A stretch of 64,000 nt of DNA from an uncultured Clostridia bacterium. GTDB taxonomy: Bacteria; Bacillota; Clostridia; Saccharofermentanales; Saccharofermentanaceae. The notes under the pieces were generated by a model. That model was not told the DNA's origin, did not search any database, and saw nothing but the letters and a program-made list of their open reading frames with translations. A program made the translations under genes and the position numbers. Below, piece after piece: positions 4,956 to 64,000 of the stretch; positions within the stretch are counted from its first letter, which is position 1, and every line of letters begins with the position of its first letter. Location: contig CAMVGO010000002.1 of NCBI GenBank assembly GCA_947167045.1, forward strand, positions 49,088-113,087. Reading direction: 5' to 3'.

Positions 4956-4965
4956 AGAAAATACA

Positions 4966-5104
4966 CTTCCTTTCTTCCGGACTTTACCGTCGGCCCCTAG
5001 AATCTCACTGGGTCAACCTCACCTTGAAAAAATTTATGAGGCTTGCGGGCTTACGCTTCTGGCGCTCACCGCCGGTCGGAGAATCACACTCCGCCTTGGA
5101 CGCC
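4966..5104 (-). promoter_or_regulatory. FMN riboswitch (RFN element) controlling ribU
   Basis: Read on the minus strand, the leader contains the conserved RFN blocks in order: GATTCTCCGACCGGCGGT, AAGCCCGCAAGCC, GGTTGACCCAGTGAGATTCT, and GGGGCCGACGGTAAAGTCCGGA. The element ends about 10-15 nt before the ribU ATG, close to the ribosome site AAGGAAGTG, which suggests FMN-dependent control of translation initiation. No obvious terminator hairpin with a U-tract lies between element and start. Confidence 0.96.
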
Positions 5105-5107
5105 TCA

Positions 5108-5135: not shown

Positions 5136-5372
5136 GACTCGTTCATAGCAATTCCGCTTGCTCCGGGTCCTCCGCGCTTCGCTTGTGTGGAAGTCGCAAG
5201 CTGAATGCTATGAACTCGTACGGAAACGTGAGCACTGCAGAATCGCAAGCTCGATACTATGAACGAGACGAAGAGAGGAAAGGTGCGGAAGTCGCAAGCT
5301 GAATGCTATGAACTCGTACGGAAACGTGAGCACTGCAGAATCGCAAGCTCGATACTATGAACGAGACGAAGA
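5136..5372 (+). repeat. 98-bp direct repeat made of smaller CAAGC/CTATGAAC units
   Basis: About 85 bp beginning GGAAGTCGCAAGCTGAATGC recur almost identically at 5189-5274 and 5287-5372, a 98-bp period. Inside each copy a smaller unit, roughly CGCAAGCT-N5-CTATGAAC-CG, occurs twice. One further unit lies inverted at 5136-5160 (CTCGTTCATAG...GCTTG), so the block can fold as alternating palindromes. It separates the divergent ribU and LicD promoters. The ORF-track start at 5357 lies inside the second copy and is not used. Confidence 0.85.
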
Positions 5373-5416
5373 AGCGGAAACGGGCCGCCGTTCACACGGA
5401 GTATATTTATATATTT

Positions 5417-19680: not shown

Positions 19681-19940
19681 GAAATTATCCCGATTGTTCA
19701 TTTTTCGGGACTTTGGGATAAAAATCGAGTGTGAAATTATCCCGGGGAAAGCTTTTCGGGGTGATTGGGATAAAAAACGGACAGGAAATTATCCCGGGTG
19801 AAGCATTTCGTGGCGATTGGGATAAAAAACGGACAGGAAATTATCCCTTGAGATTCATTTTTAAAGATTTGGGATAATTATGCCTTCGAAAATTATCCTG
19901 CGGCGGTAATAATCCATGGTTTGGGATAAATTCGCAGCCA
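19681..19940. repeat. Array A: five 52-bp units with AAATTATCCC / GGGATAA palindromic arms
   Basis: Units begin at 19681, 19733, 19785, 19837 and 19889, an exact 52-bp pitch. Each starts with GAAATTATCC (the last has GAAAATTATCC) and carries a second arm GGGATAA near position 35-41 of the unit, so TTATCCC can pair with GGGATAA. The interior between arms differs from unit to unit; units 2 and 3 are most alike and share GGGATAAAAAACGGACAG. There is no coding content. The whole region 19576-20500 contains no credible gene. Confidence 0.92.
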
Positions 19941-19986
19941 TGATCTTCATCTCCGGGCCTGACCTCTGAGCAGGCTGCAACGGGTT

Positions 19987-20418
19987 TACGATACCTCACG
20001 AAGCGCCAAGATATCGTTTTCGAGGAAAAGTATTCAAAAACGATATCGGGGAAAAGCTCAAGATATCGTTTTTCATGGAATTTATCAAAAAACGATACCT
20101 GACGAAGCACCAAGATATCGTTTTCGAGGAAAAGTATTCAAAAACGATATCGGGGAAAAGTTCAAGATATCGTTTTTCATGGAATTTATCAAAAAACGAT
20201 ACCTGACGAAGCACCGAGATATCGTTTTCATGGGAAAAAACTTGTAAAACGATATCAGTCGACGAGTTGAGATATCGTTTTCATGGAAAAAACTTGTAAA
20301 ACGATATCAGTCGACGAGTTGAGATATCGTTTTCGGGAAAAAGTTGTCATTTACGATATTTTTCAAAAAACTGAGGTATCGTTTTCGGGGAAAAATCCTC
20401 GATTACGATACCTCAGGT
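19987..20418. repeat. Array B: eight units of 52 bp with GATATCGTTTT / AAAACGATATC arms
   Basis: Left arms begin at 20010, 20062, 20114, 20166, 20218, 20271, 20323 and 20375, that is 52-bp steps with a single 53. Each unit is an 11-12 bp arm, a 13-15 nt loop, the inverted arm and a 14-nt spacer. Units 1-2 are repeated nearly exactly as units 3-4 (104-bp superunit), and units 5 and 6 are near-identical, so the array grew by duplication of unit pairs. The last unit uses GGTATCG...CGATACC, linking it to the array at the right end of the window. The ORFs 19841-20113 and 19996-20214 are artefacts of this repeat. Confidence 0.95.
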
Positions 20419-20500
20419 AGAATCAGATGACCGCTGCATACCACTGCAGACAGCTGCAAGCCGCAACAGTTTCAGCGAGCCGCGCAGCCCCGCCCCCAAC

Positions 20501-57886: not shown

Positions 57887-58538
57887 GTACGACCTTGTTC
57901 TCTATGATCTGGACGGAACGCTGCAGGACTCGATCCCGCTGATAATGGAGTCTTTCAAACACGCATACGAGGTTGTTCTCGGCGGCACCGACAGGACCGA
58001 TGAGGACCTCATGAGTTATATTGGAAAACCGCTGGGTGATTCTTTCGCAAGACACGACGATGAGACCAAAGAGCGGCTGACCGCGGCTTATCTCGAGTAT
58101 AACTGCGCCAGGATGAAGGAGAACGTGATCCCCGTATTTCCGGGCGTTTACGGGTTCCTCTCGAAAATCCAGTCCATGGGCGTCAGACAGGGAATAGTCA
58201 CTTCCAAGCGTGAGACATCTGCCATGATAACCATTGAACTGCTCGATCTGGGGCAGTATTTCGATACCATGGTATTCCGCGAAGCAACGGAACGCGCCAA
58301 ACCCCACGGCGACCCGCTGGTATATGCAGCAAAGGCCATGGGTGTCGAAGACATGAGCCGTGTTCTCTACGTCGGAGACGCGGTCCCCGACCTGCTCTCG
58401 GCAAGGGATGCGGGGTGTGATTTCGCCCTCGTGGGGTGGACGAAGATGGACAGGGAGGAGCTGGACAGCTTAAATCCCGATTATTTAATAGAGATTCCGG
58501 AGCGACTTCCTTGCATTATCAAGGGCTCCGAATTATAA
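57879..58538 (+). CDS. HAD-superfamily phosphatase (phosphoglycolate phosphatase-like)
   Basis: A 219-residue protein. LVLYDLDGTLQDSIPLIMES has the nucleophile Asp and DxD motif; GIVTSKRE supplies motif II; RAKPHGDP motif III Lys; YVGDAVPDLLSARDAGCDFA motif IV. The helical cap between residues 20 and 80 fits the Gph/PpaX group. Substrate cannot be told. It overlaps the CNNM-type gene by 8 bp. Confidence 0.9.
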   Translation: MSKYDLVLYDLDGTLQDSIPLIMESFKHAYEVVLGGTDRTDEDLMSYIGKPLGDSFARHDDETKERLTAAYLEYNCARMKENVIPVFPGVYGFLSKIQSMGVRQGIVTSKRETSAMITIELLDLGQYFDTMVFREATERAKPHGDPLVYAAKAMGVEDMSRVLYVGDAVPDLLSARDAGCDFALVGWTKMDREELDSLNPDYLIEIPERLPCIIKGSEL

Positions 58539-61379: not shown

Positions 61380-61670
61380 AATTCAAAACCGTTGACGGAG
61401 AGTGAGTAGTTTTAGGAATTCCTGTCAAAGAGAGTCCGGGATGGTGAGATCCGGGCACAAGGAGCTTAGAGCGAATGGACTCCGGAGGGCGCGAGGGAAA
61501 GGGGATACCCCCAAGTATATTGCGACGTAAGGCATACGTAAGTTGCCGGAGATATGATGGTATCTCGTCTAAGCGCACGGATCAGACCGTGAATCAAGGT
61601 GGCACCGCGGATAAGTTGTTATTCGTCCTTGACAGAAGATAAAGGATCTTTTGTCGAAGGGCGTTTTTTA
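61380..61670 (+). promoter_or_regulatory. T-box leader with Trp (UGG) specifier
   Basis: The leader contains the T-box core AATCAAGGTGGCACCGCGG (61592-61610) and stem I with GGAGAGTGAGTAG on the 5' side and GAATGGACTCCG on the 3' side. The triplet TGG at 61476-61478, followed by A, sits at the specifier position and reads Trp. A terminator hairpin (CGTCCTTGACA pairing with TTGTCGAAGGGCG, 61624-61663) is followed by TTTTTT. Uncharged tRNA(Trp) would stabilise the antiterminator and switch on trpE and trpG. Confidence 0.96.
61624..61669 (+). terminator. Regulated terminator of the T-box leader
   Basis: CGTCCTTGACAGAAGAT folds onto GGATCTTTTGTCGAAGGGCG and a TTTTTT run follows directly. It is the off-state alternative to the T-box antiterminator. 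Confidence 0.88.
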
Positions 61671-61707: not shown

Positions 61708-63174
61708 ATGAAAGTTGTGCCGTCGATCGAAGAAGTAAGAGAGCTGGCAAAAAGCGGCAGGTACGACGTTGTACCGCTCAATACAGAGATACTGTCTGAC
61801 TTTACCACGCCCATAGAAGCTATCCGCATTCTCAAGAATGCATCGACTCATGCGTATATGCTCGAGTCTGCGCAGGCAGACGAGAGGTGGGGAAGATACA
61901 CCTTCCTGGGCTTTGATCCCAAGCTTGAGATCACATGCATAAACGGAGAGATCACATACGGCGACAAGACCGAAAAGACAGATGATCCTTCGGAGATAAT
62001 AAGAGACATCCTCTCAAAGTTCAGAAGCCCGAGATTCGACTATCTCCCTTCGTTTACCGGCGGCCTTGTCGGATATTTCTCATATGATTACCTTTGCTAT
62101 GCTGAGCCCACCGCGAAATGCGATGTCATCGACAGCGAGAACTTCAAGGATGTCGACCTCATGCTCTTTGATAAGGTCATAGCCTTCGATCACGTAAGGC
62201 AGAAGCTGATCCTCATCTCCAACATGTCTTTGGAGGACGTTGACGCGGGATATGCAGAGGCATCTGAAGAACTGGGGGCCCTCATAGACCTTCTGAAGAA
62301 CGGCGCGAAAACGGAAGAGCCAGAAGGAAAGCTCCTTTCTGAAGTAACGCCCCTGTTCTCGAAAGAAGAATACTGCGCGATGGTGGAGAAAGCCAAGCAC
62401 TATATCCTTGAGGGAGACATCTTCCAGATAGTTCTCTCAAACAGGCTCTCGGCTTCTTTTGAGGGAAGTCTTCTCAATACATACAGGATCTTAAGGACGA
62501 TCAATCCTTCGCCTTATATGTTCTATTTCGCAGGCACCGACGTGGAAGTCGCGGGAGCTTCGCCGGAGACTCTGGTAAAGCTCGAAGACGGTATCCTTCA
62601 CACATTCCCGCTCGCCGGAACCCGTCCCAGAGGAAAGACGGAAGAAGAGGACAGAAGGCTCGAGGAAGAACTCCTGGCTGACGAAAAGGAACTTGCCGAG
62701 CACAACATGCTCGTCGACCTGGGCCGCAACGATCTGGGCAAGATAAGTGAGTTCGGATCGGTCGAAGTCGAGAAATTAAGGAGCATAGAGCGTTATTCAC
62801 ATGTCATGCACATCGGTTCCACTGTACGCGGAAAGATCGACGGGAAGCACGATGCGCTCGATGCCATCGAAGCTGTCCTTCCGGCAGGCACGCTTTCAGG
62901 CGCACCGAAGATAAGGGCATGCCAGCTGATCGGCGAACTCGAGAACAACAAGCGCGGCATCTACGGCGGCGCGATCGGCTATATCGACTTTACGGGCAAC
63001 ATGGATACGTGCATCGCGATCCGCATTGCCTACAAAAAGAACGGCAAGGTCTTCGTAAGGAGCGGCGCGGGCATCGTTGCCGATTCCGTTCCGGAGAAAG
63101 AATACGAGGAGTGCCTGAACAAGGCAAAGGCCGTCCTCAATTCGCTTAACCTTGCGCAGGAGGTGGACGTATGA
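61708..63174 (+). CDS. trpE: Anthranilate synthase component I
   Basis: A 488-residue chorismate-binding enzyme. The N-terminal AYMLESAQADERWGRYTFLG is the Trp feedback segment (LLES-type). The catalytic part has PLAGTRPRGKTEEEDRRLEE, NMLVDLGRNDLGKIS and LPAGTLSGAPKIRACQLIGE. The ORF track starts at 61651; the ATG at 61708 follows GCCGGAGGTGACAAGA. It forms anthranilate from chorismate with TrpG. The stop overlaps the trpG start (ATGA). The T-box leader upstream controls it. Confidence 0.97.
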   Translation: MKVVPSIEEVRELAKSGRYDVVPLNTEILSDFTTPIEAIRILKNASTHAYMLESAQADERWGRYTFLGFDPKLEITCINGEITYGDKTEKTDDPSEIIRDILSKFRSPRFDYLPSFTGGLVGYFSYDYLCYAEPTAKCDVIDSENFKDVDLMLFDKVIAFDHVRQKLILISNMSLEDVDAGYAEASEELGALIDLLKNGAKTEEPEGKLLSEVTPLFSKEEYCAMVEKAKHYILEGDIFQIVLSNRLSASFEGSLLNTYRILRTINPSPYMFYFAGTDVEVAGASPETLVKLEDGILHTFPLAGTRPRGKTEEEDRRLEEELLADEKELAEHNMLVDLGRNDLGKISEFGSVEVEKLRSIERYSHVMHIGSTVRGKIDGKHDALDAIEAVLPAGTLSGAPKIRACQLIGELENNKRGIYGGAIGYIDFTGNMDTCIAIRIAYKKNGKVFVRSGAGIVADSVPEKEYEECLNKAKAVLNSLNLAQEVDV

Positions 63175-63737
63175 TCCTTCTTATAGATAATTACGACAGC
63201 TTTTCATATAACCTTTACCAGATGATCGGCCAGATCGATCCCGATATAAAGGTCATCCGCAACGACGAGATGACGGTGGATGAGATCCGCGCCTTAAAGC
63301 CGGACCGCATAATTCTTTCACCCGGCCCCGGAAGACCGGAAGACGCAGGCATCATCTGTGATGTCGCAGCATCTATCCATGACATTCCGATCCTGGGCGT
63401 GTGCCTCGGCCACCAGGCCATCTGCAAGGCTTACGGCGCCGTCGTTACTTATGCCGAGCACCTGATGCACGGGAAGCAGTCCGATGTGGGACTTTACGCT
63501 TTATGCCCTCTGTTCAGGGGAATAGGCGAGCGCACCAAAGTCGCACGTTACCACTCACTTGCAGCAGACCGTGACACGATCCCTGATTGTCTGCAGATCA
63601 CGGCTGTGGCAGATGACGGTGAGGTAATGGCCGTGCAGCATCGTGAATATCCAATCTACGGCGTACAGTTCCATCCGGAATCGATCCTTACGCCCGACGG
63701 AAAGAAGATGCTCGAGAACTTCCTTAACATAAAGTAA
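63171..63737 (+). CDS. trpG: Anthranilate synthase component II (glutamine amidotransferase)
   Basis: A 188-residue class I glutaminase. LLIDNYDSFSYNLYQM is the family start; ILGVCLGHQAICKAYG holds the nucleophile Cys; GVQFHPESILTPDG holds the catalytic His-Glu. TrpG and PabA are alike, but the position after trpE with a Trp T-box supports TrpG. A terminator follows and the remaining trp genes (D, C, F, B, A) are not in the next 260 bp, so the two genes form a short operon. Confidence 0.95.
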   Translation: MILLIDNYDSFSYNLYQMIGQIDPDIKVIRNDEMTVDEIRALKPDRIILSPGPGRPEDAGIICDVAASIHDIPILGVCLGHQAICKAYGAVVTYAEHLMHGKQSDVGLYALCPLFRGIGERTKVARYHSLAADRDTIPDCLQITAVADDGEVMAVQHREYPIYGVQFHPESILTPDGKKMLENFLNIK

Positions 63738-63769: not shown

Positions 63770-63805
63770 GGGCTGTATCAAAATGCCGGTACAGCCCCTT
63801 ACTTT
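63770..63805 (+). terminator. Rho-independent terminator of trpEG
   Basis: GGGCTGTA pairs with TACAGCCC around a TCAAAATGCCGG loop, followed by CTTACTTTCG. The U-tract is weak, but the stem is strong. It lies 32 bp after trpG and shows that the operon ends with trpG. Confidence 0.75.
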
Positions 63806-63920
63806 CGCTTTTTGGCTGGCATTTGCCCAATGCCTGCTTTTCTGCCGTGTAAAAACGGCGAAAAACTGACCCCTTGAAGTGGATGTGCTAATGACCAGCC
63901 ATGTCTGCCGGAAGGCCAAA

Positions 63921-64000
63921 GTATCGAAATGTTTAAAAAACTTCCGTTTCCGATACCTGTCGAGAGTTCAACGTATCGAAATCCGGGGAAATCCTTTGTT
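63921..64000. repeat. Array C: start of a third 52-bp-pitch array, cut by the window edge
   Basis: GTATCGAAAT starts at 63921 and again at 63973, exactly 52 bp apart. The first unit has the inverted arm TTTCCGATAC about 29 bp downstream, then a spacer CTGTCGAGAGTTCAAC. The arm core GTATCG is the same as in the last unit of array B. The second unit is cut at 64000. The rest of the gap 63806-63920 holds no recognisable gene. Confidence 0.75.

Follow-up and report, generated by a model that had tools for sequence, protein, structure and literature searches.

Introduction

Among described bacterial repeats, REP/BIME elements are the nearest known kind to the arrays reported here. As set out in PMC2817692 and PMC1525189, they consist of short palindromic units at regular spacing and in alternating orientation, occur in many intergenic copies, have undergone species-specific expansion and prefer gaps between convergent genes, all of which is true of our arrays as well. 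PMC2817692 and PMC3733652 describe the REP tag, a GTAG or CGTC tetranucleotide that is conserved beside the palindrome, and PMC1525189 reports REP/BIME elements between convergent genes and their binding of gyrase and IHF. The phased A-tract curved DNA of prokaryotic genomes offers a second comparison: as described in PMC3940949, it has A/T runs at the helical period, like the arrays, but forms a broad genomic signal, whereas here the phasing is found in discrete, dispersed palindromic arrays.

Unlike REP/BIME elements, the arrays comprise some 25 arm families, their pitch changes in one-turn steps, and their A-tracts are helically phased. A further comparison is with the BOX elements of Streptococcus pneumoniae, which are composite, dispersed and built around a central module of ~45 bp whose copy number varies; the arrays resemble them by description in their variable unit number, and to our knowledge BOX elements have not been described as helically phased. 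Nor did we find, in the open-licence literature, a published integer-turn pitch in such repeats.

Results

An element at the edge of the window

The window is the whole 64,000-nt stretch of DNA analysed, G000:C2:49088-113087 (G000 being the genome under study), and its position 64000 is the end of the contig. At this edge, the first-pass annotation had noticed GTATCGAAAT twice, exactly 52 bp apart and with an inverted CGATAC arm in between; we recovered the pair on the + strand at 63921-63930 and 63973-63982, and the arm at 63951. The window holds three exact copies of this 10-mer where 0.13 would be expected, and the remaining one, at 58258, is unrelated. The edge fragment belongs to a dispersed family of intergenic elements, of which it forms the left end of a single member; its parts are listed with the other features in Table 1.

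Window positions 63770-64000 (231 bp) recur on contigs C33 and C74 with 99% identity, beside different, unrelated genes, and the GGGCTGTATCAAAATGCCGGTACAGCCCC terminator-like hairpin is also found 3' of unrelated genes on C33, C74, C8, C38, C13 and C6. The earlier worry that two arms at 52 bp might have no further unit beyond them is answered by the C33 and C74 copies, in which the array goes on past 64000 in 52-bp steps: two GTATCGAAA units are followed by GATATCGTTTT units on both contigs, and then, on C33 only, by TTGGGATAA units. The nearest congener, G074, which is 87% identical over trpEG, has the same gene end and then a different terminator, and no array was present after the trpG-like gene end in that genome; the element was therefore gained here or lost there, at the terminator.

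Two other structures were seen. A T-box leader (Rfam RF00230) lies at window positions 61383-61633, apparently upstream of the trp genes, and at L019 (G000:C6, ~63.6 kb) the element's own terminator hairpin, GGGGTTGTATCAAAAT...GCAGCCCC, occurs by itself with no array attached, close to an HU-like-looking gene.

Table 1. Arrays in the window and parts of the element at its right edge (window coordinates).
Feature	Position	Strand	Description
Array A	19685..19930	.	TTGGGATAA/TTATCCC arms, 52-bp pitch, arm spacing 22/30
Array B	19988..20416	.	GATATCG/CGATATC arms, 52-bp pitch, arm spacing 30/22
trpG-like gene (amidotransferase subunit)	63171..63737	+	Read from sequence; stop codon precedes element
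Terminator-like hairpin GGGCTGTATCAAAATGCCGGTACAGCCCC with T-rich tail	63770..63806	+	Left end of element; sits where G074 has its terminator
Element leader	63807..63920	+	Two more small hairpins; 99% common to C33 and C74
First B-type unit	63921..63956	+	GTATCGAAAT ... TTTCCGATAC, inverted arms forming one 36-bp hairpin
Second B-type unit	63973..64000	+	Cut by contig end; whole on C33 and C74

The family within the genome

Arrays A and B (19685-20416), to which the edge array had been likened, are real and have its pitch of 52 bp. Array B is duplicated together with its flanks on contig C30, and an array related to array A, equal in pitch, occurs in congener G059. The duplication on C30 (G000:C30, L131) takes in the whole intergenic stretch with both arrays (window 19682-20483), at 89-96% identity. 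Throughout the genome the arms alternate in orientation with spacings near 30 and 22 that sum to 52, giving regularly spaced, alternating palindromic extragenic units in many copies, as in REP/BIME elements.

A covariance model (R2) yielded 148 unit matches at ~33 intergenic loci in this genome (among at most 150 candidates scored), an approximate figure in that some palindromic units were counted on both strands, and none in 84 congeners or in 24 genomes of the order's other families. These matches bear out the proposal that the repeats form a dispersed family and did not arise by chance at one site. Neighbouring units within one array are alike, their 14-16 bp spacers included; the near-identical elements L010 and L011 differ in length by one whole unit, and elements have been copied between contigs along with their flanks. 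Many assembly contigs end inside arrays, so that the lengths of the arrays are minimum values. Outside the constant core, arm columns vary jointly on both sides by covariation counts; these counts are partly circular, TATCG and CGATA having served to select the units, and are informative for the outer columns and for columns 9-13 alone. A CRISPR array was rejected on the spacers, which are common to neighbouring units and not unrelated.

Two loci show further junctions. At L011 (G000:C33:1-3000) the array abuts an apparent open-frame start (ATGACAGATATTAG...), reflecting either its insertion into a gene or an assembly junction, and at L014 (G000:C13:1-4500) an ISL3-like insertion sequence, identified by eye, lies within a copy of the element's leader. 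We set the latter aside as a mover of the elements, as it is inserted inside the leader copy and its ends are unlike the arms.

Placement relative to genes and terminators

Resolved arrays of this and related species occupy 15 convergent, 24 tandem and 3 divergent gaps, compared to 28, 146 and 53 background gaps respectively, with genes called by a simple longest-ORF rule. In the genome under study, a terminator-like hairpin precedes the array at 15 of the 24 gene 3' ends that face one, where shuffled sequences lead one to expect 2.9. Array strand showed no clear preference relative to gene strand (three same, seven opposite). The suggested placement, in non-coding DNA past a gene end and a terminator, mostly holds, convergent and tandem gaps being favoured and a hairpin present at those 15 ends.

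Arm families and pitch classes in congeners

When 800 kb from G005 and G074 were searched without bias for the pattern w...rc(w)...w, arrays emerged whose arms are quite unlike those above. With at least two seeds, their pitches were 50 (four arrays), 51 (two), 52 (two), 62 (five), 64, 65 (in a gene), 73, 74, 75 and 83 bp, together with one of 104 bp (doubled). A held-out sample of eight other congeners (390 kb), drawn after the pitch pattern in G005 and G074 had been seen, gave pitches of 52 (five arrays), 61, 62, 63 and 73 bp, plus 87 and 105 bp, the 105-bp array sitting inside a gene; nine of the 11 fell in the three pitch classes, or seven of nine without two orthologous copies (binomial tail 6e-5). 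Across ~25 arm families, pitches cluster at 50-53, 61-64 and 72-75 bp, corresponding to 5, 6 and 7 helical turns, with almost none between, and the arrays of the genome under study are a local version of this wider class. The pitch lattice gave R 0.79 over 29 arrays, a value reached in 0 of 5,000 simulations, and R 0.83 over 25 arm families (0 of 20,000), the family list being drawn up by hand and families from different species not being fully independent. Counting against a helical-turn reading, the lattice period that best fits the pitches alone is 10.9-11.3, not 10.5.

The same array search produced 12 scattered matches at unrelated loci and no arrays in 347 kb from other families of the order, and an arm-pattern scan of control loci gave 61 single matches and no array. 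Five further congeners (samples of 10-227 kb) had no array with at least four seeds, and two scattered matches at two seeds; the class may therefore be limited to some members of the genus.

Individual arm families illustrate the pitch. By whole-genome pattern counts, G005 has 52 GTATCGAAA hairpins, the genome under study 11 and G020 one. Those listed for G005 mostly cluster in threes and fours, spaced 50 to 54 bp apart with a mean step of 52.36 bp, or 5 x 10.47 bp per turn; their arms, fixed by the search pattern, are conserved as a consequence of it, and the unit interiors are only 48% identical save for a T-tract at a fixed place. The ACTTTTTGT hairpins include seven pairs exactly 62 bp apart, from G005, G084 and G074, and TAGTACGTAA hairpins were found in G005, G074, G020 and G023. 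Two arrays of G074 (L197 and L207) are GC-rich, with a 64-bp pitch (CAGGCGGAAC..., GCCGTTCA...), and the class accordingly does not require A/T-rich arms.

A-tract phasing and predicted bend

For the 51-52, 62, 64 and 73-bp groups, the strongest harmonic of the AAA/TTT spectrum is the one closest to 10.4 bp, and array A by itself has its peak at 10.4 bp. Two 50-bp arrays are exceptions that count against the pattern, their 12.5-bp component being stronger than the 10-bp one. The highest AAA/TTT peak falls at 10.0-11.0 bp for 22 of 23 arrays of this genome and 20 of 26 congener arrays, compared to 19% of the 234 gaps used as controls; these gaps, from the same genomes, lack the phasing that the arrays possess. 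A-tracts phased at 10-11 bp, the mark of intrinsically curved DNA, are therefore present, and a dinucleotide wedge model run with approximate parameters predicts axis bends of 63 and 58 degrees per 52 bp versus 26 in control gaps, roughly a twofold difference.

Transposase and tag

No GTAG or CGTC tag was conserved in the aligned unit set or in the units inspected. A search for the REP-associated Y1 tyrosine transposase (PF01797) gave matches in control genomes and none in the genome under study, G005, G074 or G070 (completeness 79% for the assembly under study and 99% for G005).

Discussion

Our main reading, to which we assign a probability of roughly 45%, is that these REP/BIME-like elements without a REP transposase act, where transcription units end, as palindromic DNA that is curved and helically phased. 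An element is a row of inverted arms in alternating orientation, in which whole units are gained or lost one pitch at a time and whose copies move with their flanks between intergenic sites. With a pitch of a whole number of helical turns (five here) and the A/T-tracts of a unit one helical turn apart, each unit's bend would add in the same direction. Double-stranded DNA is probably the level of action, since integer-turn pitch and phased A-tracts have no obvious RNA reason and many arrays lie past terminators; there, a curved, palindrome-rich stretch could be an architectural or topological site, for example the tip of a plectoneme or, along the lines proposed for the BIMEs of E. coli, a platform to which gyrase or a nucleoid protein binds. 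Beyond the anatomy of the arrays, their pitch classes, phasing, placement and spread within the genome, which are observed directly, we infer such a topological or architectural function and selection on bending. We also advance, tentatively and at a little less than even odds, that the class is defined by geometry, with almost any arm sequence, a pitch of 5, 6 or 7 turns and A-tracts in phase, and with selection acting on the curved superstructure.

These elements might instead be selfish or neutral dispersed repeats, MITE-like or REP-like and useless to the cell, with units multiplied by slippage and recombination and copies moved by some enzyme whose recognition sets arm symmetry and pitch. 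Such repeats would show the species-specific expansion, the copying of whole elements with their flanks, the recurrence of similar sizes (3-4 units in G005; two units of 62 bp in G005, G084 and G074) and the location in harmless gaps that we find, and they could settle at gene ends merely because insertion does least harm there. We nonetheless consider this rather unlikely: the Y1 transposase is missing from all four genomes searched, central T-tract and pitch stay while interiors diverge to 48% identity, and phased A-tracts over some 25 unrelated arm sequences would not be expected of neutral repeats.

Good pairing of the arms as RNA (z -3 to -6) counts against action at the level of duplex DNA, and their stable RNA stems and joint changes outside the constant core would suit rows of hairpins at the 3' ends of mRNAs, with a role in transcription termination or transcript protection. 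That role appears decidedly improbable, given that a terminator-like hairpin comes first at 15 of the 24 facing gene ends, so that many arrays would stay untranscribed, and given the lack of a clear strand bias; it needs neither 10.4-bp phasing nor integer-turn pitch, and no Rfam model matched the arrays, the only Rfam matches in the window being the T-box and an FMN riboswitch at other positions. Arrays of the operator or centromere kind, each arm family having its own sequence-specific protein and the integer-turn pitch placing sites on one helix face, would in turn explain why arms resemble paired half sites and why several families keep arm and pitch together across species, integer-turn pitch being typical of cooperative binding. 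Some 25 arm families in few species would, however, demand equally many proteins, divergent promoters are avoided and phased interior A-tracts are not required, making this reading improbable too.

If the pitch rule holds, the curved-DNA reading would bring unusually direct sequence evidence that dispersed palindromic repeats are selectable for duplex DNA shape, as a geometry common to many unrelated arm sequences allows shape to be told apart from the recognition of sequence. The function of REP/BIME-like repeats would then become testable, with predicted curvature, binding partner and local supercoiling all measurable.

Elsewhere in the window, positions 5185-5380 hold two 98-bp tandem copies, in the gap upstream of the minus-strand FMN riboswitch (4961-5107).
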